Source: Pedosphaera sp. | Lineage (GTDB): Bacteria; Verrucomicrobiota; Verrucomicrobiia; Limisphaerales; F1-12-MAGs170 | Direction of reading: 5' to 3' | Length of the DNA: 46,130 nucleotides | NCBI GenBank assembly: GCA_009695275.1 | Contig: SIBF01000009.1 | Coordinates: forward strand, 1 to 46,130 | Shown here: one piece after another, positions 28,653-45,984 of the stretch | Numbering within the stretch: position 1 is the stretch's first letter | Layout: every line of letters begins with the position of its first letter | Notes under the pieces: generated by a model | What the model saw: only the letters and a program-made list of their open reading frames with translations | Databases searched by the model: none | What the model was told of the DNA's origin: nothing | Translations under genes and position numbers: made by a program

Positions 28653-28656
<4 letters not shown>

Positions 28657-31493
28657 GCGACGGCCGGCCTGGCGATGAACCGGAGCGCCGATTTCCAAAT
28701 CGGCACGATGAGCAAGTGAAGGAGAACACGCCGATTGGGAAATCGGCGCTCCAATCTCCATCCGCCTCCAAAACTTCCCTCAGCCCCCGCCGTCGCCGTT
28801 TGCGCCTCACGATGGCGGCGTTGTCCGTGGTCGCGGTTCTCAGCTCGTCGCTCGGCGCGCTGATCTATTTCACGAGCCGTCCCGCGCAGTATCGTCCCGA
28901 CGAGCAGAGCGCCGACATCACCAGCGACCTCGCGCGCAACCTGCCGCCCGAGACGCCGAAGCCGCGCTTCACCGACGTCACGCGCGCCGCGGGCCTGGGC
29001 GAGTTTCGCAACTTTACCGGCGTGCGCACGGGAGAGATGCCCGAGGACATCGCCCCCGGCCTGGCGTGGGGCGACTTCGACAACGACGGTGATGACGACC
29101 TCTTCCTCGTGAGCGCGGGTGGCGCGTTGAACGTGCCGGAGAATCAACTCCAGCCCTGCGCGCTCTTCGAGAACCTCGGCGACGGCACGTTCCGCCGCGT
29201 CGCGACATTTCCCGACACGCGCATCCATGGCAACGGCGCGGCCTGGGCTGATTACGATGGCGACGGATTTCTCGATCTGGTCGTGAGCGGCTTCAACGCG
29301 CTGCTGCTGTTTCACAACGAAGCGGCCGAGGGTGGCGGACGGAAATTTGTGTGCGACCTGCGCTTTCTGAATCCACCCGGCTTCTGGACGGGCGTGTCGT
29401 GGGGCGACTTCGACAACGACCGCGCGCCCGACCTCTACGTCTGCGGTTACATCGATTACGTGGTCACGGCTGAGGACCGCCAGAAGACTTCGACCCAGAT
29501 TGGCTCGATGGTGCCGTTCACGCTGAACCCGGCATCCTTCAAGGGCGGAACCAATCTGCTCCTTCACAACAACCGCGACGGTACGTTCACTGATGTCGCG
29601 TCCGCGCTGAAGGTAACCAATCCCGAGGGCCGCAGCCTCGGCGCTCTCTGGCACGACTTCGATGAGGATGGCTGGCTCGACCTCTACGTGGCGAACGACA
29701 TCTCGGATAATGTTTTTTTCCACAACACCGGCGGGAAGTTCGAGGACATCAGCCATCCGGCACTCGTGGCCGATTACCGGAGCGCGATGGGACTGGCGGT
29801 GGGCGATTACAACCGCGACGGAGATGACGACCTTTTCGTGTCGCACTGGGTCGCGCAGGAAAACGCGCTCTACGACAATACCTGGGCGGATTTCAATTAC
29901 CCACGAGTAGCAGCCGACGTGAGGAGGCTCACGAATGAAGTCCGAAATGCGACATCCGGAACCCGCAATGAACAGAGCCTCGTCACCTCGGCTGCCACGA
30001 ACAAATATCCCCTCCGCTTCATGGACATCGCCGACCAGAAGGGCCTCGGCCAGATCGCGCTGCCCTATGTCGGCTGGGGCACGGAGTTCGTGGACTTCGA
30101 CGGCGACGGCTGGCTCGACCTTGTCGTGGCCAACGGCAGCACACTGGAGGAAGACGGTCTGCCGCCGAAGAAGCTCAAGCCGCAGGACACGCTGCTCTTC
30201 TGGAATCGGCGGGCGGAATACTTCCACAACATCGCGCCGCTCCACGCCGGTCTCAGCGAGAAACACGTCAGCCGCGGCCTCGCCGTCGCCGACTTCGACA
30301 ACGACGGTGACATGGACTTCATCATCGCCGACCTCGGCGAAGGCGTGCGGCTTTTCCGCAACGACATGCAGACCGGCCACTGGCTGAAGATCCGCCTGCG
30401 CAGCCGGAATCATCTCGGTAAACCGGTCGGTTTCGGCGACGGCTCGAAAGTGATCGCCCATTTCGGCGGCGTGGCGCTGCGCCGGAGCGTGACGGGCGTG
30501 AGCTACCTTTCACAGAGCAGCCGCACGTTGCACTTCGGCCTGGGCGCGGCAACAAAAGTGGACCGCCTCGAAGTCCGCTGGCACGCCGGCGGGACGAACT
30601 TCTTCGAGAGCCTCGATGCCGACGCGAGCTACGACATCACGGAAGGTGAAGGCGCGCCGCGCAAACTTGCCCCGGCGCGCGGCGTTCACGCCGCTTCATC
30701 GCACTCAAGTTCGAGCACGGCGGAATTTGCAATAACGCCCCCAGAGAGTTCCACGCCGAAGCTGCCTGAAGGCCGCGCTCCCAACGACAAACAGCGCACG
30801 CTCGACTTCTGGTCCAAGCAACGTGCCGCAATGAACGCCATGAAGGTCGAGAAGGACAACGCCAAGGCCATCCCGCTTTTCCGGGAGGCCCTGGCCTTGA
30901 ATCCCGCGCATGAAGATTCGCTCTATTACCTCGCGTCCTGTCTGGCTGGCCAGGGCGACACGGACGGCGCGCTCGCGCAGCTCGCCGAACTCAAGCGCCT
31001 CAACTCACAAAGCCAGCGCGGGTTCGCCCAATGGGGAACCCTGCGTGCCCTCTCTGCGACGTCATCAGCCGACCTGCAAGCCGCCGAGGAATCGCTCGCC
31101 CACGCCCACGCCATCAATCCCGAGGAGACGGGCGCGCTCCTGGTGCTCGGCGAAGTTGCGTTGCTCCGCGGCGGAACAAAGCTGGCCGACGAACGACTTG
31201 CCGCCGCCTGCCGCACGAATCCCAAAGCCGTTGGCGGTTTCTTTGTGCGCGGCTACCTCGCTTGGAAACGCGGCGACGACACGGGCGCGAAGAAATTTCT
31301 CGAAGACACCCGCGCCGCGCTCGGCAAGGAATGGCAGCCCAAGGGCGCAACCAGCGAAGGCGACGTGAAGCAGAAGCAGCACGTCGAGAAGACTCCTCTC
31401 ACGCAGTTCTGGGAAGGCTGGGATGGTACCGCAGAACCGGGCCTTGCTTTCGTGAAACTCGACAGGCACCTCCAATCGAGCGTTCGCAAATGA
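28653..31493 (+). CDS. Membrane-anchored FG-GAP/VCBS, ASPIC/UnbV and TPR protein
   Basis: The protein has 946 residues. A basic cytosolic N-terminus (1-50) is followed by one TM (about 52-73). The exported part has at least seven Ca-binding FG-GAP/VCBS motifs (GDFDNDGDDDLFLV, ADYDGDGFLDLVV, GDFDNDRAPDLYV, HDFDEDGWLDLYV, GDYNRDGDDDLFV, VDFDGDGWLDLVV, ADFDNDGDMDFII), then the ASPIC/UnbV domain (about 580-665: DGSKVIAHFGG, SQSSRTLHFGLG), and TPR-like helices (about 710-900). ATG 28653 overlaps the cytochrome stop, so the two are coupled and probably interact. Two REP-like palindromes are absorbed in frame: residues about 10-34 and 418-449. Such proteins often accompany multihaem cytochromes in Planctomycetota/Verrucomicrobiota; their task is unknown. 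Confidence 0.85.
28682..28752. repeat. REP-like palindrome within the 5' coding region of the UnbV-TPR gene
   Basis: GGAGCGCCGATTTCCAAATC at the left and the inverse of GGAGCGCCGATTTCCCAATC at the right enclose a 30-bp centre. The 71-bp element encodes residues about 10-34 in the cytosolic tail ahead of the TM segment. Its two ends are both palindromic in themselves (CCGATTT...AAATCGG). Confidence 0.75.
29904..29999. repeat. REP-like palindrome (GTAGCAGCCGA family) within the UnbV-TPR gene
   Basis: The left arm (GTAGCAGCCGACGTGAGGAG) and right arm (GAGCCTCGTCACCTCGGCTG) are near-complementary over 25 bp. The element codes for residues about 418-449, VAADVRRLTNEV...NEQSLVTSAAT, between two propeller repeats. 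The same element family is inside the kinase gene at 40408-40483, read in the same frame. Confidence 0.8.
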
Positions 31494-31534
31494 ACAGCTG
31501 GACCGACCCTGGTTTGCGCTGACCGGCCCCATGC

Positions 31535-31548
31535 TTGATTAACGTCAA
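31535..31548. promoter_or_regulatory. FNR/DNR-type box TTGATTAACGTCAA (distal) before the DUF2249 gene
   Basis: A 5-4-5 palindrome with TTGAT and GTCAA half-sites, centred about 127 bp before ATG 31669. Confidence 0.65.
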
Positions 31549-31622
31549 GGCCGCGCCACTCATGCGTGAGCGACGCTTCAAACATGAACGAACCGCCACT
31601 CGTCGATGCAGACGAGCCGGGT

Positions 31623-31636
31623 TTGAGCCGGGTCAA
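31623..31636. promoter_or_regulatory. FNR/DNR-type box TTGAGCCGGGTCAA (proximal) before the DUF2249 gene
   Basis: Second site before the same gene, centred about 40 bp before ATG 31669; the fifth position (G/G) is not symmetrical. It could act as a second activator site or, by overlapping the promoter, as a repressor site. Confidence 0.5.
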
Positions 31637-31668
31637 GGCAGTTGCGCGGACGGCGAAGCAGAGTGGCT

Positions 31669-31902
31669 ATGATGAATACGAATGAGACTCCGGTGATTTT
31701 GGACGCGCGGGGACTGGAACCACCCCAGCCGCTGGTCGTCATCCTCGAAGCCCTGGAGCGCCTGCCCAAAAGTGCGGAGATGCGCGCCTGCACGGATCGT
31801 CGGCCTCTGCATCTATACGCGCTGTTGGAGCAACGTGGCTTCACTGCTGAAACAGAGCAACAGAATGACGGAAGTTTTGTCACCACCATCCGCCATGCCT
31901 GA
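31669..31902 (+). CDS. DUF2249 domain protein
   Basis: A small 78-residue protein from ATG 31669 (or 31672), with the DUF2249 pattern: ILDARGLEPPQPLVVILEAL (L-D-x-R-G-L-x-P-P-x-P), a polar turn CTDRRPLHLYALLEQRGF (usually D-x-x-P-x-P-L) and a final strand SFVTTIRHA. The fold is TusA-like. From memory, DUF2249 genes cluster with nitric-oxide reductase, hybrid-cluster and DUF59 genes. Two FNR-type boxes precede it. It overlaps the following membrane-protein gene by 8 nt if that starts at 31895. Confidence 0.8.
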   Translation: MMNTNETPVILDARGLEPPQPLVVILEALERLPKSAEMRACTDRRPLHLYALLEQRGFTAETEQQNDGSFVTTIRHA

Positions 31903-33256
31903 TGCATCTCGGGTGGGAAGGCCCGGTCCCATGTCGGCGAAGGCCAGCGTCGGCACGGATGTCCGTGCTCCGTCGGTGGCCCTGCCGCTGCGGTTCATTT
32001 TGACGGGCATTGGCGCGCTTCTGACCGGGTGCGCGTGGCTGGTGCTGCGTCCAGACTTGCTGGCCACCTACCACTACAACCAATACGTTATTGCCGCCAC
32101 GCACCTGTTCGTGCTCGGTTGGATTTGTTCCGCCATCATGGGTTCGATGTATCAGCTTGTGCCGGTCGCGCTGGAGGCGCGGCTCCATAGCGAGAAGCTG
32201 GCCCGCTGGCATTTTGCGCTGCACGTCACTGGCTTCGTCGGAATGGTCGTGATGTTTCAGAATTGGAATCTTAAATACGTGGGAAGTTTCGGTTCCATCC
32301 TTGCGCTCGGCGTCGGGCTGTTCATCTACAATCTGGTGCGCACGCTGGCGCGAATCCCGCGCTGGAATGTGGTGGCATTCGGGATCGCGTCATCACTTGC
32401 CTGGCTGGCGCTGGCGATTTTCGCGGGCCTTTACCTTGCCGCGGCGAAATGCTGGAGCTTCAGTCCGTTCGAGCCGCTGGCGCAAATGCACGCGCACGCG
32501 CACCTCGGCGGGCTGGGCTTCTTCGTGATGCTGATCGTGGCGGTTGGGTACAAACTCGTGCCAATGTTCGCGCTCAGCGAAGTGCAAAGCGCACGGCGCG
32601 CCGGCTGGTCAATCGTGCTGCTCAATGCGGGCCTTGCTGGAGTGTTCGCCACCATCCTGTTTTCCAGCCAGTGGAAGATCGTCTTCGGGTGCGTCGTCGT
32701 CGTCGGGCTGGCCTTCTACTGGTTGGAAATCCTGGCAATCCTGCGTGCTCGCAAGCGTCGCAACCTCGATTGGGGCCTGAAGTATTTTCTCACGGCCGTC
32801 GCACTGCTTGTTCCCGTCTCAGCACTGGGAGCCGTGCTCGCCTGGCCACAACTGCCGCTGACGCCGCTGACGGCGCAGATGGAAAATGTTTATGGATTCC
32901 TCGCGTTCATCGGCGTCGTCACGTTCGCCATCCTTGGAATGCTCTATAAAGTGGTGCCGTTCCTCGTTTGGTACGCCAGCTACAGCAAGGCCATTGGGCG
33001 GGGCAAAGTTCCATCCCTGGCCGGCCTTTATTCACCCACGCTGCAGGCCACCGGCTACTGGCTCTTCATCTCTGGCCTTCTGTTGACGAGCGTGGCGACG
33101 GCGCTTGCTCATGAATCCTGTGTGCGGGCTGGCTGCGTTGTGCTGCTGGCGAGCGTCATCGTCTTTGCTGTGAACATCGGAAAAGTGCTCATTCATCTCG
33201 TTCGGCCACGCATCGAACCGCTCGTGTTGAAACCCACTTTGCAAGGGGTCGCATGA
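31895..33256 (+). CDS. 12-TM haem-copper-oxidase subunit I-like membrane protein
   Basis: About 12 hydrophobic helices over 453 residues. The start is uncertain (ATG 31895 overlaps the DUF2249 stop; 31865 and 31931 are alternatives). Potential metal-ligand His residues are in helix 2 (NQYVIAATHLFVLGW), near ARWHFALHVTGFVGM, in the cluster MHAHAHLGGLGFF (helix 6) and in AHESC. The pattern resembles NorB/cbb3-type subunit I proteins, but I cannot place all six canonical His residues (the double-His of helix 7 and paired His of helix 10), so it may be a haem-b protein or NO-binding relative rather than a full oxidase. NnrS-like function is an alternative. Neighbours (DUF2249, DUF59, Crp/Fnr) fit a nitric-oxide-related role. 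Confidence 0.65.
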   Translation: MPDASRVGRPGPMSAKASVGTDVRAPSVALPLRFILTGIGALLTGCAWLVLRPDLLATYHYNQYVIAATHLFVLGWICSAIMGSMYQLVPVALEARLHSEKLARWHFALHVTGFVGMVVMFQNWNLKYVGSFGSILALGVGLFIYNLVRTLARIPRWNVVAFGIASSLAWLALAIFAGLYLAAAKCWSFSPFEPLAQMHAHAHLGGLGFFVMLIVAVGYKLVPMFALSEVQSARRAGWSIVLLNAGLAGVFATILFSSQWKIVFGCVVVVGLAFYWLEILAILRARKRRNLDWGLKYFLTAVALLVPVSALGAVLAWPQLPLTPLTAQMENVYGFLAFIGVVTFAILGMLYKVVPFLVWYASYSKAIGRGKVPSLAGLYSPTLQATGYWLFISGLLLTSVATALAHESCVRAGCVVLLASVIVFAVNIGKVLIHLVRPRIEPLVLKPTLQGVA

Positions 33257-33281
33257 CGGTTGCGAACGCGAGTGGCAGTCA

Positions 33282-33312
33282 CTGTGGGTCAGGCTGGAAG
33301 CCTGACCCACAG
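33282..33312. repeat. REP-like perfect hairpin, 14-bp arms
   Basis: CTGTGGGTCAGGCT and AGCCTGACCCACAG enclose GGA. It lies between the membrane-protein stop (33256) and ATG 33344, and may also act as a transcription attenuator. A second, less perfect copy is at 45960-45984. Confidence 0.75.
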
Positions 33313-33343
33313 CCGTTGGACGCCGCTTTCCATCACCCCACGT

Positions 33344-33664
33344 ATGAACATTACCAAGATTGACGAAGCCGCCATCTGGGAGGCTTTGCGCCAGGTCGTG
33401 GACCCCGAACTCGATTGCAACATCGTGGACCTCGGTCTCGTTTACGGCATCGCCATCAATGGAGTCACAATTTCCGTCACCATGACACTCACGACGCCCG
33501 GCTGCCCGATGCACGAGAGCATCGCCTGGGGCGTTCAATCAGCACTGCTGAATCTCGAAGGCGTGGAAGATGTTGAGGTGAACATCGTGTGGAGCCCACC
33601 GTGGACGCCCTCGCGCATGAGCGAATATGGACGCTCACACACGGGTGTTTCCGACAGTAGATGA
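33344..33664 (+). CDS. DUF59/MIP18-family metal-sulfur cluster assembly protein
   Basis: ATG 33344 (MNITKIDEAAIWEALRQV) gives 106 residues; the frame upstream only translates the REP element. Family marks are VVDPELDCNIVDLGLVY, ISVTMTLTTPGCPMHES (the conserved Cys in TTPGCPM) and LEGVEDVEVNIVWSPPWTP. Relatives (SufT, PaaD, Cia2) help mature Fe-S proteins. Its C-terminal WSPPWTPSRMSE is typical. In this setting it could serve Fe-S or haem proteins damaged by NO. It follows the membrane protein after an 87-bp gap containing a strong hairpin. Confidence 0.88.
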   Translation: MNITKIDEAAIWEALRQVVDPELDCNIVDLGLVYGIAINGVTISVTMTLTTPGCPMHESIAWGVQSALLNLEGVEDVEVNIVWSPPWTPSRMSEYGRSHTGVSDSR

Positions 33665-33804
33665 GGCGGGATCATTACAAAATAGGTTGCTCTCATGAGC
33701 CCGTTCTTCGTTCGCGGAATGTGCGCGCGCGCGACAGGAAGTAAGTTTCCGCGATTATCGATCAGCAGCAGGGAGCAGTTGGTACGTTTACTTCTGCCGC
33801 AAGA

Positions 33805-34545
33805 ATGCTTATGCCTGTGGTCGGCATGACCACCACACTGGCTGAACTCAAGCTCATCGGGATAGTCAACGCGCTCCGAAGTTGCCAGCTCTTCGCCGGG
33901 ATTCCATCGCCGGAGCTGAACGCCATTGCTGAGATCACCTTTGTCAAAGCGATCAGCAAGGGCAGCTACCTTTTCCATGAGGGCGATCCGTCGCTCGGAT
34001 TTTACATAGTGCAGATCGGCGCGATTAATGTGCATCGCGTTAACGGCGCTGGGAAGGAGCAGGTCATCCATGTGTTCCGCGCGGGTGAATCTTTCGCGGA
34101 AGGCACGCTCGCCACAGACAAGGGTTATCCCGCAGACGCACGGGCGGTGGACGCCTCGCAAGTTCTGCTTGTGCAAAAATCTGGCATTCTCGCTCTGTTG
34201 CGGAGGCAGCCGGAGCTGGCGCTGCGGATGCTCGGCTCGATGAGCGCCCACTTGCGCATTCTCGTCGGACAACTCGAAGACCTGACGCTCAAGGATGTCG
34301 AGACACGCCTGGCGAACTGGCTGGTCAAGCGCTGCCCCAATCCCTTGAATGACAAGCCAGCCAAGGTGGAGCTGCTCATGACCAAGCGTGTCCTCGCGGC
34401 GGAATTGGGCACGGTGAGCGAAACTTTTTCCCGGACGCTGGCGAAGTTTCGCGAACAGAGGCTCGTCACCGTCAAAGGCAAAACCATCCTGATCTTGAAT
34501 CCACTCAAACTGGCCGACCTGCTGCGCCGTCATCTAGGCGAATAG
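33805..34545 (+). CDS. Crp/Fnr-family transcription regulator, DNR-like (no Fe-S cysteines)
   Basis: A 246-residue regulator. The N-terminal cyclic-nucleotide-binding fold (about 25-140: LRSCQLFAGIPSPELNAIAE, FHEGDPSLGFYIVQIGAINV, FRAGESFAEGTL) is followed by a long dimer helix (MLGSMSAHLRILVGQLEDLT) and a winged HTH (190-240). The recognition helix reads SETFSRTLAKF, with E206, S209 and R210 matching the E-x-x-S-R of E. coli FNR that reads TTGAT. Only two cysteines exist (C27, C177), so it lacks FNR's 4Fe-4S cluster and looks more like DNR/NNR haem-type NO sensors. Seven TTGA-N6-TCAA sites surround it, none directly before its own start. It likely controls the neighbouring redox genes. Confidence 0.88.
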   Translation: MLMPVVGMTTTLAELKLIGIVNALRSCQLFAGIPSPELNAIAEITFVKAISKGSYLFHEGDPSLGFYIVQIGAINVHRVNGAGKEQVIHVFRAGESFAEGTLATDKGYPADARAVDASQVLLVQKSGILALLRRQPELALRMLGSMSAHLRILVGQLEDLTLKDVETRLANWLVKRCPNPLNDKPAKVELLMTKRVLAAELGTVSETFSRTLAKFREQRLVTVKGKTILILNPLKLADLLRRHLGE

Positions 34546-34588
34546 CGGAATTCGGGAGATTTCAGAGTGCTGGCTGGTGGTCGCGGCC

Positions 34589-34602
34589 TTGATGGAAGTC
34601 AA
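34589..34602. promoter_or_regulatory. FNR/DNR-type box TTGATGGAAGTCAA before the HzsA-related gene
   Basis: A 5-4-5 palindrome centred about 186 bp before ATG 34782, in the 236-bp gap after the Crp/Fnr gene. The distance implies a long leader or a more distal activator role. Confidence 0.6.
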
Positions 34603-34781
34603 GGTCTGCATGGCAATTCTCGGCAAATCTCCATCAGATCGGCAAACCTGACACGGCGGGCGTGCCGGAGCCTTCTTTACCACAATTCGGGCCCGTGCCG
34701 GGCATGTGTTCCAGAACGAAGGCTCGATCGAGAAGGCTCCGCAGCCGTCGTTGATGCCGCGTAAACAATGGAAAGTGACGT

Positions 34782-37769
34782 ATGAAAACGTTCTCACTCG
34801 CCGGGCTGGAATGGCTCATCGGCATCACACTTTGCATAGTGACTGCCATGGCAGCAGACAAGACGGTGATGGTTAAGATCACCGCAGATGGTGAACAACC
34901 GGGCTACGAGGCGCGCAACGCGATGGACGGAAACCCCGATACTCTTTGGCACACTCCATTTGGTTCCAGCAATCCATCGCCTCCCCACCACATCGAAGTG
35001 GATCTCGGCGCCGCGTTTGAGATCTCTGGATTCGCCTGCCTTCCGCGAAAGGGCGGTGGCAACGGAACGATCAGGGATTACGCCTTCTTCGTCAGTGACG
35101 ACGGGAAAAAGTTCAATCAGCCCGCCGCGACAGGTGCTTTCGCCAGCAGCAACAACTGGAATGAAATCAATCTCGCGATTCCGGTGAAGGGCCGGTACGT
35201 GCGGTTGCGCGTCTTGTCCGAGATCGGCGGACATCCGTGGAGTTCCATCGCCGAGCTGAGAATCCTGTCGCCTGGCGTGGAGTTTCTCTCCGGCCCGGTA
35301 TGGGCGCTGAACATCCCCGGCCGTGACAGCCAGCCGCGAACGGAACTGGAATGGCAATACGCCTCGTTGCTCAACGAGCTGCGCGAACGAGACAAGATCA
35401 GCGCCTTGTCCAATCAAACTTTTCGTACCGAAGCGCTCATCCTGCCGGCCGACCGGGATCCGGCCGATGTCGTGGCGCGGCGTGTAGCGGCGTTGCTGGC
35501 AGACTTGAAGCGCAGTTTGGTGGCGCGTGATGTGGTTGCCTGGGAGGAACAACTCAATGCGTTGCGGATCGAGTTGACTGGCGTCACCACCGAGGACATC
35601 GAGAGGCGTTTCGGCCTGTTCAAACGATTGTGCGGACTGCGGCGAGAAATCGCTTTCGCCAATCCGCTCCTGGACTTTCACGAAATCGTTTTCGTCAAAC
35701 GACACCGGTCGCTCTTCAACCACATGTGCGACCAGTATTACGGCATCACGGCACAACCCGGCGGTGGACTCCATGTCCTGGCTGATCCGTTCAGCTCGAA
35801 CCCGACCGTTCGCGATGTGCTCGCCGATCCGGTCGTGACGAATGGTCGGCTCGCGGGAAAGAAACTGTCGGGTGTGCCGAGCAAGAGGTATCAGCTTCAC
35901 TTCGACGGCGAGGGCAATCTGAGCGGCGATGAAACTGACGGCGGCGCGTTCCTGTCACCCGAGGTTTCCTATGACGGCAAGAGCATCCTGTTTGCCTACG
36001 TCGAATGCACGGGGGAACGCCAGCACCGGCATCACACTGACCCGACGCGGGGGCATTGGGCCGAGGGACGCTGTTACCATATTTTCCAGGTGAATGCGGA
36101 TGGGTCTGGTTTGCGGCAATTGACCGATGGTACATGGAATGATTTCTCACCTTGCTGGCTTCCCAACGGGCGAATCGCATTCATCAGCGAACGGCGAGGT
36201 GGCTACCTGCGATGTGGACGCATGTGCCCGACCTACACGCTGTTCGACATGGCTGCCGATGGCAGCGATATCAATTGCCTGAGCGTTCACGAAACGAACG
36301 AATGGGATCCCAGCGTCACCAATGACGGACGCATTCTCTGGACGCGCTGGGATTACGTGGACCGGCACGGTTGCACCGCGCACATGCCTTGGATCACGAC
36401 ACTGGATGGTCGGGATCCGCGGCCAGTCCATGGAAATTATGCGCCACGCAAAGTCCGGCCCGACATGGAACTGAACGTGCGCGCCATCCCTGGTTCCCGA
36501 AAAATGGTCGCCACCGCAGCGCCCCATCACGGTCAGGCCTTCGGCTCGCTCATCATGATTGATCCCGAAGTGGCCGACAATGACGGCATGGCTCCGGTGA
36601 AACGGCTGACACCAGAAGTCGGGTTTCCGGAAAGCCAGGGCGGGGCCGAGGCTTTTGGAACCGCGTGGCCATTGAGCGAAAACTATTTCCTCTGCGTCTA
36701 TGATTTGCGGATGCCTTCCGGTGACCATGTTGGGAAGCACCTCACGCAATATCCGAACAACTACGGCATCTATCTCGTGGACAGCTTCGGGAACAAGGAA
36801 CTGATTTACCGTGATCCGGAAATCTCCTGCATGTCACCGATCCCGCTGCTACCGCGGCCCGGGCAACCGCTGGCTGCGCTGGCCACCGCGTCGGCCCGCG
36901 TCAATCCCGCCGCCCCAGTAACGGAAGCCGCCCGTCCGGCGGAAGCCACGGTGTCCGTGCTCAATGTCTATGACAGTCTGCTGCCGTGGCCCGACGGGAC
37001 GAAAATCAAGGCGCTTCGAGTGCTACAGGTGCTGCCAATGACGGTTCCGTCCGGCACGCCTCCGCACGACACCGGACTGCGCGTTGCTGGAGCCGGCGAT
37101 TCGGTGGTGCCCGTCCGGCACGTCCTGGGCACCGCGCCCGTCGAGGAAGATGGCAGCGCTCATTTGATCGTGCCGGCCAATCGGGAATTATTCTTCCAGG
37201 CACTGGACGAGCGCGGGCTGGCGGTGCAGTCGATGCGATCGGCCACCGCCTTGCGCGCCGGAGAACACCTGACCTGTCAGGGTTGCCATGCGTCCACCCA
37301 GCGCAGCCCACAAATGCCAGCGGAGACACCCCTGGCAATGCGACGCCCACCCTCGCACCTGAAACCGGACGTCGATGGCTCGAATCCGTTCAGCTATCCG
37401 CGCCTGGTGCAGTCAGTGCTCGACCGCAATTGCGTGTCCTGCCATGAGGATAATTGTGGCAAGGCACCCAATCTCGGACGCGAACCCCTGCACAAAAAGT
37501 GGTATGCGTCCTATTCCAGCCTGACCCCGCGATTCGGTTTTTACGATTACGGCGACAATTATCGCACCACCCCCGGTCGATTCGGCGCTCACGCGTCGAA
37601 GCTGCTCGCGTTGCTCGACAAGGGTCACTACGACGTCAAGCTCACCGAGGACGATTTCCACCGGTTGGCGTTGTGGCTCGATTGCAGTTCGATGTTCTAC
37701 GGTGTTTACGAAAAGGAAGGTGGCGAAGCACAACTGCGCGGCGAGGTCGCCCGGCCCACGCTGGAGTGA
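34782..37769 (+). CDS. HzsA-related exported dihaem protein with N-terminal discoidin domain
   Basis: The product has 995 residues. A signal peptide (SLAGLEWLIGITLCIVTAMA) is followed by an F5/8 type C (discoidin) domain at about 30-165 (ARNAMDGNPDTLWHTPF, HHIEVDLGAAFEISGFACLP), a helical part (180-300), PD40/TolB-like propeller blades (SPEVSYDGKSILFAYVE, FQVNADGSGLRQLTDGTW, FSPCWLPNGRIAFISERRGG) and a C-terminal domain with two haem c sites, C832-QG-CH836 and C884-VS-CH888. This is the layout of the HzsA-related family, named after the alpha subunit of anammox hydrazine synthase; the discoidin domain suggests surface carbohydrate binding. There are no HzsB/C genes, so hydrazine synthesis is not implied. 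An FNR-type box lies upstream. Confidence 0.85.
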   Translation: MKTFSLAGLEWLIGITLCIVTAMAADKTVMVKITADGEQPGYEARNAMDGNPDTLWHTPFGSSNPSPPHHIEVDLGAAFEISGFACLPRKGGGNGTIRDYAFFVSDDGKKFNQPAATGAFASSNNWNEINLAIPVKGRYVRLRVLSEIGGHPWSSIAELRILSPGVEFLSGPVWALNIPGRDSQPRTELEWQYASLLNELRERDKISALSNQTFRTEALILPADRDPADVVARRVAALLADLKRSLVARDVVAWEEQLNALRIELTGVTTEDIERRFGLFKRLCGLRREIAFANPLLDFHEIVFVKRHRSLFNHMCDQYYGITAQPGGGLHVLADPFSSNPTVRDVLADPVVTNGRLAGKKLSGVPSKRYQLHFDGEGNLSGDETDGGAFLSPEVSYDGKSILFAYVECTGERQHRHHTDPTRGHWAEGRCYHIFQVNADGSGLRQLTDGTWNDFSPCWLPNGRIAFISERRGGYLRCGRMCPTYTLFDMAADGSDINCLSVHETNEWDPSVTNDGRILWTRWDYVDRHGCTAHMPWITTLDGRDPRPVHGNYAPRKVRPDMELNVRAIPGSRKMVATAAPHHGQAFGSLIMIDPEVADNDGMAPVKRLTPEVGFPESQGGAEAFGTAWPLSENYFLCVYDLRMPSGDHVGKHLTQYPNNYGIYLVDSFGNKELIYRDPEISCMSPIPLLPRPGQPLAALATASARVNPAAPVTEAARPAEATVSVLNVYDSLLPWPDGTKIKALRVLQVLPMTVPSGTPPHDTGLRVAGAGDSVVPVRHVLGTAPVEEDGSAHLIVPANRELFFQALDERGLAVQSMRSATALRAGEHLTCQGCHASTQRSPQMPAETPLAMRRPPSHLKPDVDGSNPFSYPRLVQSVLDRNCVSCHEDNCGKAPNLGREPLHKKWYASYSSLTPRFGFYDYGDNYRTTPGRFGAHASKLLALLDKGHYDVKLTEDDFHRLALWLDCSSMFYGVYEKEGGEAQLRGEVARPTLE

Positions 37770-37802
37770 TTGGCTGAACTCCGCGAGGATCGCTGGTCCG
37801 GC

Positions 37803-38210
37803 TTATTTGGCCGCCGGTGCTCTCAATAATCCCGAGGTAATCTTCTCCAGATGCCAAATCTCCTTCTTCAACAGCGCCGAGACCCGGTGCTTGGTGAGAT
37901 AAACGCGGGCGACGCTGATGCCGAGTGTCTGCGCCACCTCCGCCGGGCGCCAACCCTTGGTCACATGGAGATCGAACACCTGGAATTGCCGCTCCTCGAT
38001 TCGTTCACGTACACGTTCCATGGCTTGCGCGAGAAGGTTCTTTTCCCAGGCGGTGTCCCATTCGACGCCGAACTCGGGAAGCGAAGGGTCCGGAATGCGC
38101 TCAATCGTCGCCGTGCTGCCAGCGTCGTCCTTGGGTAGTGCGTGCGACTCGCCGGCAATTCCTCCATCCCACTTCCGTTTCCTGATTTGATCCTGAATCC
38201 TCCAACGCAC
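37803..38210 (-). pseudogene. ECF RNA polymerase sigma factor, C-terminal remnant
   Basis: The frame starts within sigma region 2.4 (RWRIQDQIRKRKW, corresponding to TRxRIxDxLRKR) and runs through region 4 with the HTH (FQVFDLHVTKGWRPAEVAQTL, SVARVYLTKHRVSALLKKE). A stop lies in frame two codons upstream of GTG 38210, and neither other minus-strand frame upstream shows region 2, so the core-binding part is gone. This sigma subgroup is, from memory, the one that accompanies PEGPGTPQAD-type kinases in Verrucomicrobiota. The 121 bp upstream of it holds nothing recognisable. Confidence 0.75.
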
Positions 38211-38331
38211 AAGTTACCACGCCGGATTTTCCAGGTATCACTTTTGCCGACACCGCCGCTGGTACTCAAGACACAGCGTTTTATCGAGTGAGGATGGATC
38301 CATGAACTCTCGTTACGTAGGCACGAAAGAA

Positions 38332-39261
38332 TCACTTCGGCCACACGTCCAATCCAATCTTCTTGAGCAAAGCTTGGAATCGCGGTTCATCGCGCAGTCC
38401 ATCCCAGGCGGGGTCTCTCCGCAGGCCACCCCCGCCAAAGTGTGGATTCACGAGCGCTTCTGCCTTCTTATCGAATGCACGTTCCAGGTATGTTAGGGCT
38501 TCGGCGCGATTGCCCAAGGCCGCGTGAACACGGGCCACGAAGTATGGCTGCACGTAGCGATTGCTCTTTTGTCGCTCCAGTTCCCGCAAGGTGTCTGCTG
38601 CTTTCTCACGTTCCCCCATGAGCGCATAGGTGTATCCTTCCAGGGCAAGGAACTCCGGTGCATTGAACAGGTCCCGCGTCTTTCGGATTTCTTCCAAGGC
38701 AAGGCGGAAATCCTTCTTCGCGATCGCGCACTGGGCGGCAAAGCAGTGCTGCCCGTATTGTTTTGCATCCAATGCGTCCGCGCGGTGCCCTTCACGAATG
38801 CCGTCGTCATAGCGTCCTTCCGCGAACGCTCCGATCGCTACGTACAGGCGGTGGAGCCAATCCGTGGGGTCCTCCGCCTCCAGTTTCCGCTGTTCGAGGC
38901 GTGACTCGTTTGTGCGCCCGATGGTCAGGTAGTACACAGCCCAAGAGATATGATCCTCGGGGTGCCAGCGGATCAGTCTTTCAAAGACTTGCTTTGCCTC
39001 CTGCCAGTTCCACTCGTAGGAGAGTTTGTAGAAAGCCAGCCAGTACTGAGCTTCGAAACTCGTATCGTCCAGCTTGAGGATCTCGAGCGCATGGGTCATA
39101 ATCTCAGGCCAGACGTCATCCGCCGCCAACTCTCCAATGGCATAATCACGGATTGCCACGATCATCGTGTGGTAGGCGCGAATGCAGTCCCGATCAATCT
39201 GGATAGCGCGGTTGAGCGTCTTTCTGGACTTCGTGACTTCCTCCCGCGTGTTCATCGCCAT
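38332..39261 (-). CDS. TPR-repeat protein, probably the detached C-terminal part of a kinase-TPR protein
   Basis: The 309 residues from ATG 39261 (GGGCGGAG before it) are TPR-type helices throughout (AIQIDRDCIRAYHTMIVAIR, ALEILKLDDTSFEAQYWLAF, ALGNRAEALTYLERAFDKKA). The ending GLRDEPRFQALLKKIGLDVW is the standard C-terminus of verrucomicrobial kinase- or adenylate-cyclase-linked TPR proteins (LRxDPRFQxLLxxxGL). The kinase gene ends only 15 nt upstream, at the point where such proteins normally enter their TPR part. Either a stop split one gene into two cistrons, or they were always coupled genes. Confidence 0.8.
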   Translation of the reverse strand: MAMNTREEVTKSRKTLNRAIQIDRDCIRAYHTMIVAIRDYAIGELAADDVWPEIMTHALEILKLDDTSFEAQYWLAFYKLSYEWNWQEAKQVFERLIRWHPEDHISWAVYYLTIGRTNESRLEQRKLEAEDPTDWLHRLYVAIGAFAEGRYDDGIREGHRADALDAKQYGQHCFAAQCAIAKKDFRLALEEIRKTRDLFNAPEFLALEGYTYALMGEREKAADTLRELERQKSNRYVQPYFVARVHAALGNRAEALTYLERAFDKKAEALVNPHFGGGGLRRDPAWDGLRDEPRFQALLKKIGLDVWPK

Positions 39262-39276
39262 CTCCGCCCATCCCTG

Positions 39277-40866
39277 TTAGGTCAGTCTAAGTGTTTCGAT
39301 TTTGTTCAGGAGTTTCTGATCGATTTGTTGTGCAGCTCCCTCGGTAATTCTCAAGCCCAGCTTGTCTGCGATGCGTTCAATGGAATCTCGTTCCAGAGCG
39401 ATCAAGTCATTGGTTTTGCCGGCGAAAGTCTCCTTCAACAGCGGCTGGTCGTTGCGCGCTTCATAGAGGCAAACCGTGAGGCTGATCGTGTCGTTCGTGG
39501 TTGAGATTTGGCCCGTCAGGATGTGGCTTGCGGTGTTCGTCTTCGCCAACGAACGCCGAAGTTCGTCCTCGTTCAACGAAACCCACCCGGATTTGCGCGG
39601 GCCCGTCTTCACACCGTGGATCAACGGCAGGGCGTCGATAAACGCATCAGTCAAATCGCCTCTTAAGTCGTCAATATACGCCGTGGCGTTCTGCCAGGGG
39701 CGGTCGTTCTCGACGGCATTCGTCCCCGTGTTGCGGAACGGCAGGACGAAAATGGAGACCCTCTCCTTCACAGCGGACACAGGGATCTGCCCTTGCTTCT
39801 GTCGCGGGTTGATGAACACCAGCGTGAGCAATGCCAGCAGCGCGGCGATCGGGATCGCGCGTTTCGTCAGGTTGAGCGCTTGTTCAAAGTTGCGCCGGGT
39901 TCGCACCGATTTTCCCCGCTGCAGCCGCTCAAGGTCTTTGCCCAATTCCACGGCTGATTGATAACGCCGTTCCGGGTCTTTGGCGCAAGCTTTAAGCAGG
40001 ATTTCGTTGAACTCGACGACGGCGCGGCGATCCGGCCACTCGCGCAGGTCTTCGGGCAGCTCAGGAAACCGTCGGCGGTCCAGGCCGGTGCTGATTTCGT
40101 AGAGCAGTTTGCCCAGGCTGAAGATGTCGGCCTGAGGCGTACCGGGGCCTTCCGGCGGAAGGTAGCCTTCCGTCCCTACGATCGAGTGCGTGTCGCCCGC
40201 CTCGGTCACCAACCCGATGTCACCGAGCTTGGGCACATCGTTCACAAAAATCACGTTGGAGGGCTTTATATCCCGGTGAACGAGGCCGTGCTGATGCAAG
40301 TGCGCGAGGGCCGTCGTCAGCGAGAGACCGATTTGGATGCAGTCTGGGATGGGGAGGCGCGTGTGCTGTTCGAGGTCGGAGCGGAGAGTTCGTGGGATGT
40401 ATTCCTTCGTAGCAGCCGAGGTGACGAGGCTCTGATTGATTCCCCGTTCATTTGAAGTGAGCCTCGTTACCTCGGCTGCTACGGGAGGAGTAGCGTCGTC
40501 CGCCAATTCCATCACATAATAGAAGCATCCGGCCGCGTCGTTCTTCCCCACGTGCAGAATCGCAAGCTGGCTGGGATGGGAGCGGGAGATCGGCTCGAAA
40601 CGTTGAATGCCTTCGAACTCGCGTTCGCACGGGCGTGCGTCGCTGAAGCGGCTGCGGTGAATGATCTTCACCGCCCGGAATTCGCCAAGGACGTTGCGCG
40701 CGAGCCAGACTTCGCCATAGGCCCCGGCACCGATACGCCTCAACAGCTCGTAATCGGGAACCGTGATCCTTGCTGGTTCAACGCCGTCGGGACGTGAAGA
40801 ACTTCCCCCGGTCGAAACGAATGGCCCGGCAGCATTCCACTTGGGGATTTCGCCGGACGGTTGCAC
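39277..40866 (-). CDS. Membrane Ser/Thr protein kinase
   Basis: Starts at GTG 40866 (529 residues; no ATG precedes the kinase domain). Hanks-type elements are IGAGAYGEVW (about 43-52), FRAVKII with the ATP-binding Lys, HRDIKPSN (catalytic Asp), GDIGLV (DFG replaced by DIG, common in this subfamily), and GTEGYLPPEGPGTPQADIFS (activation loop and APE equivalent). A single TM lies at about 338-354 (AIPIAALLALLTLVFI), followed by an extracytoplasmic part with FVLPFRNTGTNAVEN and a FlgO/TolB-like strand-helix pattern. A REP-like element is inserted in frame at residues about 129-153, after the hinge (YYVMELADDATPP). A perfect FNR box lies 69 bp before the start. Confidence 0.88.
   Translation of the reverse strand: MQPSGEIPKWNAAGPFVSTGGSSSRPDGVEPARITVPDYELLRRIGAGAYGEVWLARNVLGEFRAVKIIHRSRFSDARPCEREFEGIQRFEPISRSHPSQLAILHVGKNDAAGCFYYVMELADDATPPVAAEVTRLTSNERGINQSLVTSAATKEYIPRTLRSDLEQHTRLPIPDCIQIGLSLTTALAHLHQHGLVHRDIKPSNVIFVNDVPKLGDIGLVTEAGDTHSIVGTEGYLPPEGPGTPQADIFSLGKLLYEISTGLDRRRFPELPEDLREWPDRRAVVEFNEILLKACAKDPERRYQSAVELGKDLERLQRGKSVRTRRNFEQALNLTKRAIPIAALLALLTLVFINPRQKQGQIPVSAVKERVSIFVLPFRNTGTNAVENDRPWQNATAYIDDLRGDLTDAFIDALPLIHGVKTGPRKSGWVSLNEDELRRSLAKTNTASHILTGQISTTNDTISLTVCLYEARNDQPLLKETFAGKTNDLIALERDSIERIADKLGLRITEGAAQQIDQKLLNKIETLRLT
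40408..40483. repeat. REP-like palindrome (GTAGCAGCCGA family) within the kinase gene
   Basis: Arms CGTAGCAGCCGAGGTGACGA... (40408-40432) and ...CTCGGCTGCTACG (40459-40483) are 25 bp with one mismatch, loop 26 bp. On the minus strand it codes for VAAEVTRLTSNERGI then NQSLVTSAAT, the same reading frame as the copy at 29904-29999 in another gene. Confidence 0.85.
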
Positions 40867-44409: not shown

Positions 44410-45849
44410 CTAATGTTCGGCCGCCGTTCCCGACTCCTCGAGCAAATGCCGGATCACATCCGCAGCGGAGTAACTATCGCGGTTCGGCGAGAGAAAACGA
44501 GAGATGTCCGCCACTTCATCGCCGGCGGTGAGGAGCGCTGGCTCACGATAGCCCCCTGGCTGAATCTGGCCCAGACCGATGGTGGACAACAGCCCGTTGC
44601 AGACGCACTTGCGGCCGTTGATATCGGCCAGGTCTCCGCCTTTGGCTACGTAATGGTCTTCGGGTTCGCCTGGACAACGGTAGCCGAGAGTCCCTTCTGG
44701 TTTGCGATAGGCGCGGCGCAAGTATCCAAGATCGCAAACTCGCTCACGCGCCAGATAGATTTCTGACTCGGAGAGCGTGTCGGCCAAACGCGCGACCTTG
44801 AATGGAAAGCCGGTGGGGGACGCCACTGGATCGGTGAAAACTTCCATGCCCCCGTCACGGCTGGAGCGCAGAACCTGTGCTTTCAATCCGGCCTCGATGC
44901 CGGACTCCTCGCAGAAAGCGAATGCTGTTCCTACTTGCACGCCGGCTGCTCCGATGCGCAACGCTTCGGCCAGGCGCGCCGGGGTGGCATACGAACCTGC
45001 CATCCAAAACGGCAACCCCAGGGCGCGGATCTTTTCGAGGTCCGGGACATCCCGCGACCCGTAAATCGGCTCGCCCCGTTCATTGAGTTGCGCAACACCC
45101 CGCGGCGGCGCGTTGTGCCCGCCGGCGGTGGGGCCTTCCACCACGAAGCCATCGACGCGCCCGCTGGCTTTGCGAGCGAGGGTCAGGGCGAGCACGGTGG
45201 AGGAAATGATGGCGAGAAAGTGAGGACGTTTCAGTTCGGGCGGAGTCGTTCCGCAGAAGGCCGCAGGATCAAAAGCGCAATAAAACTCGTCGCTCGGTCC
45301 AGCGCCTTCGACTTCGAGATTCAACCTTACCGTCTGACCTCGCGCCAGTTGATCCAGAAGGCCGGGAATGGCCATTGGAATGCCCGCGCCCATGAGCACG
45401 TAATCCACTCCCGCGAGCATCGCGCCAAAGAGCGAGGGCAGGGTGGGGAGCTGGATCTTTTGCAGGTAGTTGATGCCGACGAGCCCGGTGTGCCCTTCCT
45501 TGGCCAGGAAGACTTCAGCGAAATTGGCCAGCACGATGAGTTCGACCAGCGCCGGGGCGGGCTGTTGCGAAAGGATGGGGGTCGGTTTGAAAGGCTGGCC
45601 GGTTGGCTTGCCGCCAGGAATGAAGTAACGATCCAGTGCGCGTTGCGCCATCTCAGGAAAGGGAAACTGCGCGAGCGCCCGGCGCATATCCCCGTCCGGA
45701 TCGCCCTCCTGCAATCGTCGTGCGAGAATTACGTCCAGCGCCGTGCCTGAGACAACCCCGAGCTGGCCCAGTTGGGAAACCGCGCGTGCCAGACGCCAGT
45801 TGGAGACACCAGCGCCCATGCCGCCCTGGATGATTAACGGATCAGACAT
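44410..45849 (-). CDS. Nitronate monooxygenase-like FMN enzyme, long form
   Basis: ATG 45849 (MSDPLIIQGGMGAGVSNWRLARAVS; quoted in part: IIQGGMGAGVSNWRLA) gives 479 residues; the longer open frame upstream runs through the FNR-type box and is not used. The TIM barrel has QGGMGAGVS (FMN), GINYLQKIQ, VEGPTAGGHNAPP (catalytic His in AGGH), WMAGSYATP and GAAGVQVGTAFAFCEES. It is longer than typical nitronate monooxygenase (about 350) owing to an insert and a Cys-rich C-terminus (YRCPGEPEDHYV, GRKCVCNGLLSTIGLGQ), similar to the PfaD/2-nitropropane-dioxygenase-like group. The reaction may be oxidation of nitronates or a reductase step. An FNR-type box lies about 55 bp before the start. Confidence 0.8.
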   Translation of the reverse strand: MSDPLIIQGGMGAGVSNWRLARAVSQLGQLGVVSGTALDVILARRLQEGDPDGDMRRALAQFPFPEMAQRALDRYFIPGGKPTGQPFKPTPILSQQPAPALVELIVLANFAEVFLAKEGHTGLVGINYLQKIQLPTLPSLFGAMLAGVDYVLMGAGIPMAIPGLLDQLARGQTVRLNLEVEGAGPSDEFYCAFDPAAFCGTTPPELKRPHFLAIISSTVLALTLARKASGRVDGFVVEGPTAGGHNAPPRGVAQLNERGEPIYGSRDVPDLEKIRALGLPFWMAGSYATPARLAEALRIGAAGVQVGTAFAFCEESGIEAGLKAQVLRSSRDGGMEVFTDPVASPTGFPFKVARLADTLSESEIYLARERVCDLGYLRRAYRKPEGTLGYRCPGEPEDHYVAKGGDLADINGRKCVCNGLLSTIGLGQIQPGGYREPALLTAGDEVADISRFLSPNRDSYSAADVIRHLLEESGTAAEH

Positions 45850-45897
45850 AATGCTTTCAATCGGCGTAACGATAGCTGCGGGGGAGAATGAATACAT

Positions 45898-45911
45898 TTG
45901 ACGCGGGTCAA
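45898..45911. promoter_or_regulatory. FNR/DNR-type box TTGACGCGGGTCAA before the flavoenzyme gene
   Basis: Identical 14-mer to 26396-26409, flanked in both places by an extra T on the left. It is centred about 55 bp before ATG 45849 on the minus strand. Confidence 0.75.
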
Positions 45912-45959
45912 ACCTACAGAGAGTTGGGAGGGGTCGATTGAAAGTGGCGGGCAAACCGC

Positions 45960-45984
45960 GTGGGTCAGGCTTCCAGCCTGACAC
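45960..45984. repeat. REP-like palindrome, second copy
   Basis: GTGGGTCAGGCT-TCC-AGCCTGACACT: same family as 33282-33312, with two mismatches at the outer end of the stem. Confidence 0.65.

Follow-up and report, generated by a model that had tools for sequence, protein, structure and literature searches.

A 46,130-nt stretch of DNA (the window) carries two copies of one palindromic element, each lying in frame inside an unrelated protein gene, as the first-pass annotation had proposed; a repeat search of the window linked the two copies. Judged by its sequence and covariation, the element is a GTAG-type REP that most often consists of two 24-nt hairpin arms set head to head and separated by a variable spacer. 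Overall, we consider it likely that a non-autonomous GTAG REP is read through in frame and kept in protein loops. The kind of element is known; the new point is that its reading frame in genes shows a bias beyond what stop codons account for by themselves, with a real excess on the right arm that deserves a larger test.

Anatomy and distribution of the element

Copy A measures 92 nt from arm to arm (29907-29998) and lies within a forward-strand gene (28653..31493) for an FG-GAP/UnbV_ASPIC/TPR protein, assigned from Pfam. The left arm (29907..29930, forward) consists of GTAG and the hairpin and matches the arm pattern exactly. It is followed on the forward strand by a 44-nt spacer (29931..29974) and by an inverted right arm (29975..29998, reverse) that has one mismatch to the pattern and GTGG in place of GTAG. 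Copy B measures 74 nt (40409-40482) and lies within a Ser/Thr protein kinase gene on the reverse strand (39277..40866; Pfam PF00069, 29 aligned relatives, AlphaFold). Its arms, at 40409..40432 (forward) and 40459..40482 (inverted, reverse), both match the pattern exactly and enclose a 26-nt spacer (40433..40458). The limits first given for the copies, 29904-29999 and 40408-40483, located the element correctly but misplaced its ends: position 29904 takes in the flanking codon CGA, outside the repeat, and 40408 and 40483 are the C and G adjoining copy B.

Each copy, on the strand of its own gene, encodes the matching peptide ends that had been described, VAA(D/E)V(R/T)RLT ... QSLVTSAAT. In copy A the right arm reads QSLVTSAAT, and in copy B the arm at 40459..40482 comes first on the gene strand and reads VAAEVTRL. 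The first G of GTAG occupies codon position 1 in both copies and both lengths are 2 mod 3, which yields the VAA...TSAAT reading. A second palindromic repeat, GGTCAGGCTGGAAGCCTGACC, also occurs twice in the window (33287-33307 and 45963-45983; 0 expected), and its latter copy touches the start of an ORF at 44410-45984.

The arm has the layout GTAGC, then AGCC-GA-S-GTNA-S-GA-GGCT, then C. Among 383 arms, the outer stem was AGCC/GGCT in 323, and compensatory stems were found as AGTC/GACT (12 arms), CGCC/GGCG (6) and GGCC/GGCC (4). The tandem GA/GA was retained in 363 arms, the loop was GTGA, GTAA or GTCA in 365, and the loop-closing pair was C-G in 253 and G-C in 112. The element thus has GTAG at its outer end, a covarying hairpin with compensatory changes, and many dispersed copies that often form inverted, head-to-head pairs, so that the original label 'REP-like' was apt. 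The 262 elements of our first set comprised 162 dimers and 100 single arms, and dimer length in the first survey was 50-175 nt, mostly 65-99 nt. Under a DNA energy model, the whole window dimers fold strongly (z -5.2 and -9.8). Under the same model, the four window arms taken singly did not fold above shuffles, nor are usual single arms more stable than shuffles; the exception is a perfect copy in the same genome (L176; 7-bp stem, GTGA loop, z -4.0).

The element is scattered over many sites and genomes of the order. The genome that contains the window (4.83 Mb, 66% complete) gave 30 arm matches at 21 places, against 0 for a backward-pattern control. A search of 1.04 Mb of loci gave 254 arms against 0 on the reversed sequence; these loci were mostly picked for holding an arm, and only the zero is informative there. 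Of 196 genomes of the order, 81 contained the family, compared with 0 for the control, with up to 111 forward and 108 reverse exact arms per genome. These zero controls rule out chance similarity. In named genomes the arm pattern was found in at least 120 stretches, most titled Verrucomicrobia or a subgroup; a few of the matches listed were titled otherwise (for example Klebsiella, Proteobacteria or Acidobacteria). Copies from genomes G017 and G110 were identical to those of named Verrucomicrobia MAGs (L399 and L425 to L047 and L126; L456 to L077), which assigns the order to this phylum.

Insertion sites in the two host proteins

In the UnbV protein, the insert occupies a hypervariable loop flanked by NALYDNTWADFN and YPLRFMDIADQ, which varies in length and sequence among the 15 relatives that cover the site. 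The orthologue from genome G166 carries the same element but lacks 21 nt of the spacer, that from G114 carries an ungapped, apparently decayed version that keeps 13 of the 24 insert residues, and other relatives have unrelated loops. The AlphaFold model of the UnbV fragment has a mean pLDDT of 83, and residues 367-397, which form the insert, fall below 50. In the kinase model, strand E84-89 and helix H131-138 bound the loop that holds the insert. The stretch from YYVMELADD to YxPRTLR encloses a variable loop in each of the 29 aligned relatives, with apparent remnants of the element in two (L334 and L339). The mean pLDDT of the kinase fragment is 85, with low values at residues 101-112, 114-116 and 118-120, within the insert (99-123). 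Both the orthologue loops and the low-confidence segments bear out the suggestion that the copies sit in tolerant loops. It had also been predicted that the peptide would be absent where the DNA element is absent, and this held for the UnbV and kinase orthologues.

It should be noted that the annotated UnbV ORF contains a 23-nt inverted repeat (GGAGCGCCGATTTC..., 28682-28752) within its first codons. Alignments with UnbV orthologues begin only near residue 37, which probably puts the true start downstream of the annotated one.

The inserted peptide could itself be a useful module, such as a binding or regulated loop, with its amino acids under selection. Between the window and G166, 23 of 24 insert residues are identical, compared with 707 of 888 in the rest of the UnbV protein, and three kinases (L081, L169 and L195) carry an insert at what is apparently the same turn, both of which would fit such a role. 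However, changes at fourfold sites do not differ clearly between insert (3/15) and remainder (131/364), the hosts are unrelated proteins, and AlphaFold gives the inserts no confident fold. The G114 orthologue has kept only 13 residues, and genome G045, which is closer to the window than G166 (758/892 residues identical, 114/406 fourfold differences), has another repeat at the site. We therefore regard a useful module as very unlikely. Of the proposal that the element was domesticated as a peptide insert, in-frame retention stands and a useful role is conjectural, given hypervariable loops of low model confidence and one apparently decayed copy. All three kinases at the shared turn are in the rarer GCY right-arm frame described below.

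Because G045 is nearer to the window and yet is without the REP, the shared UnbV insert was probably lost or replaced there. The G045 loop (L291:3065-3215) holds an unrelated inverted repeat, CCCTCACCCCGGCCCTCTCCC, read as FPLTPALSPGERE...LPLPEGEGRGEGE, and the motif of this repeat is present in 13 of 469 loci. The UnbV gene shows how the peptide drifts after insertion, through whole-codon changes of the spacer and apparent decay of the arms, and how other repeats can take over the same loop.

Copies within genes and the bias in reading frame

To place the elements relative to genes, we called the frame of the flanks, without looking at the element, using a codon model trained on 300 long ORFs; the true frame was ranked best in 1062 of 1224 windows. 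Elements with flanks <150 nt were excluded (15/262 in set 1, 4/89 in set 2). In set 1, 51 of 247 classifiable elements were in frame and open within a gene (40 dimers and 11 single arms); in set 2 (genomes G017, G038 and G110; 89 elements) the figure was 25 of 85 (22 dimers and three single arms). Three of the 22 set 2 dimers repeat set 1, and the total is 73 in-frame copies. The codon model is simple and most genomes are incomplete MAGs; some in-frame calls may be neighbouring genes that share a phase. In the genome of the window, 11 of the 21 places were in frame inside genes.

The element is retained in frame in genes that appear functional. A Pfam scan of 47 host ORFs (46 from set 1 plus L353, a chance find; L226, L241 and the second copy in L170 were excluded, and the window pair was scanned separately) assigned a family to 46, many of them housekeeping and seven of them Ser/Thr-type kinases. 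By hand count, the insert lay within one continuous Pfam match in 21 of the 47. Predicted hosts include valyl-tRNA synthetase (L110), carbamoyl-phosphate synthase CarB (L045), GatB (L139), a UvrA-type protein (L221), the exonuclease VII large subunit (L063, L234), GcvT (L094), lipoyl ligase (L227) and a NuoF-type protein (L209). The inserts add roughly 25 to 30 amino acids, and where inserts share a site their lengths differ by a whole number of codons (21 nt in UnbV, 36 nt in UvrA and 21 nt in ExoVII). A polyketide-synthase-like ORF of the same genome as the window (L170:2913-3810) apparently contains two in-frame copies ~0.8 kb apart, of which the second consists of one arm only, and in genome G125 an in-frame copy in a FAD-dependent oxidoreductase (DAO) gene (L353:2351-2423) lies beside a Y1 transposase gene.

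The stops of the forward arm (TAG, and TGA or TAA) all fall in one frame, leaving only two of the three left-arm phases open, and the reverse arm has none; a dimer with an open spacer is consequently readable within a gene. The frame shared by the two window copies, to which attention had been drawn, is real but means little by itself, with two of three left-arm phases open. A dimer length bias was tried as a sign of coding selection and rejected, since lengths of 1 mod 3 are also dominant in noncoding dimers (24/39).

We tested for frame bias by listing, for each in-gene dimer, which of the six frames were actually open, and drawing uniformly among these (20,000 draws). The test covered 54 dimers. 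It excluded L226, L241 and L234, which are same-site inserts to L221 and L063; L081 and L195, at the same kinase turn as L169; and the set 2 loci already in set 1 (L390, L399, L425, L439 and L456, among which L399, L439 and L456 are in-frame dimers). The simplest expectation, that stop avoidance is all that matters and any open frame is as good as another, accounts for the left arm, where phases 1 and 0 numbered 38:16 against 35.4:18.3 expected (P=0.24), in keeping with the confinement of forward-arm stops to one frame; nine of the 54 dimers had a single open frame. It does not account for the right arm, which was read as SLxTSAAT in 46 dimers, GCY in eight and SSPRLL in none, against 33.1, 11.3 and 9.6 expected, a skew that no draw of the 20,000 equalled. 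The TSAAT excess recurred in set 2 alone (16, 3 and 0 of 19 for TSAAT, GCY and SSPRLL, against 11.0, 6.2 and 1.8; P=0.005), in which the lack of SSPRLL was not significant (P=0.10). We judge stop avoidance as the sole cause to be unlikely.

With nothing dropped, the same three readings numbered 33, 7 and 0 of 40 in set 1 (25.0, 6.7 and 8.2 expected) and 19, 3 and 0 of 22 in set 2 (13.1, 6.7 and 2.2 expected), and the 27 strong calls gave 21, 6 and 0 against 17.3, 5.3 and 4.4 (TSAAT P=0.04). The left arm of set 1, with nothing dropped, was 30:10 against 25.3:14.5 (P=0.045). Among single arms in genes, right arms comprised eight TSAAT and one SSPRLL-like, and left arms five SSR and no VAA. The preference for a frame claimed at first pass is therefore upheld on the right arm, as an excess of SLxTSAAT, and falls away on the left, where stops explain it. 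Claims of a 'same frame' need testing against stop filtering; in the present case, one arm retains a real excess after such a test.

The bias could alternatively arise at insertion, if the transposase preferred flanking bases that occupy particular codon positions. The flanks are indeed non-random: of 146 ends outside the in-frame set, 73 had C at -1 and 102 had a pyrimidine (T or C) at -2. Nevertheless, weighting the phases by these flank preferences and by the codon-position composition of the hosts moved the expected TSAAT count only from 33.1 to 34.1-34.3 of 54, and we find an origin in insertion preference quite improbable.

Read-through and retention of a non-autonomous REP would instead proceed as follows. 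A dimer whose spacer is open and whose net insertion length is a multiple of 3 could insert into a gene and still be translated through; copies that disrupt a required gene would be lost, and copies in loops would persist as flexible inserts. Loop position is shown for the two window genes and frame retention for 73 copies, whereas the selection itself is inferred. Copies whose second arm reads SLxTSAAT are kept more often than SSPRLL ones, the likeliest cause being that this small, polar reading is less harmful to the protein. We further put forward, as a tentative and somewhat doubtful generalization, that the REP may be a translatable selfish insert whose SLxTSAAT arm is passed by protein-level selection, that it may feed flexible loops into essential proteins across the order, and that repeat families may alternate at a given loop. 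The 73 in-frame copies, several shared by descent, are a sizeable comparative sample in which repeat DNA turned protein can be traced as it inserts, changes length by whole codons, decays and is replaced.

Mobilization and comparison with known systems

The element is presumably spread by an HUH/Y1 transposase of the REP-associated kind, which would act on the GTAG hairpin in trans. We found seven Y1 transposase matches in the genome of the window and 74 in seven element-rich genomes. Of these 81, 55 were examined, and none had an arm within 500 bp that would mark a RAYT flanked by this REP; the flanks of some of the transposase genes are cut by contig ends. In four of the 55 an arm lay at 0.5-1.6 kb, about as the density of the element predicts. 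Five Y1 transposase genes of G110 and G099 (L371, L372, L374, L379 and L387) have other GTAG hairpins on both sides, for example GTAG-CGCAGGCG; going by their arrangement, these are other REP families with their own putative RAYTs. An autonomous parent was also sought, as adjacent forward and reverse arms 160-3500 nt apart, and rejected: in the loci searched, no such pair occurred except in L064 (273 nt) and L068 (223 nt), neither of which leaves room for a transposase gene.

GTAG REPs inside ORFs are known. According to the accessible portion of Di Nocera, De Gregorio and Rocco 2013 (PMC3733652), intragenic GTAG copies are most numerous in the verrucomicrobial Opitutus terrae, dimers within ORFs encode 20-30 residues, flexible loops are proposed as tolerant sites, and uvrA is among the hosts. 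The O. terrae families resemble our element in described anatomy, with a GTAG end followed by a hairpin and arms paired head to head across spacers of 20-100 bp, and also in their presence within ORFs of Verrucomicrobia and in a uvrA host. A RAYT flanked by the same REP is reported, in the text available, for most but not all species; for our element, no flanking RAYT was found among the 55 of 81 Y1 matches examined. The available part of the O. terrae work contains no stop-corrected frame test, and our literature search, in which subscription journals were poorly covered, returned neither such a test nor any other report of intragenic REPs in Verrucomicrobia.

The palindromic elements of Rickettsia (RPE; Ogata 2000, 2002), as described in the accessible parts of PMC10969869 and PMC3733652, likewise lie in frame in unrelated genes, and compatibility with protein structure has been proposed for them. 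They differ in length, about 150 bp (PMC10969869) against 50-175 nt here, and those of R. conorii end in CGTC (PMC3733652) whereas our element ends in GTAG; in-frame insertion in genes is thus shared with RPE, and the CGTC end and the length of about 150 bp are not. The REP/BIME sequences of enterobacteria and pseudomonads, which are associated with RAYTs, share GTAG and a hairpin, inverted pairs and many copies per genome. They are mostly extragenic according to the portion of PMC3733652 available, whereas 51/247 and 25/85 of the classifiable copies described here lie in frame within genes.
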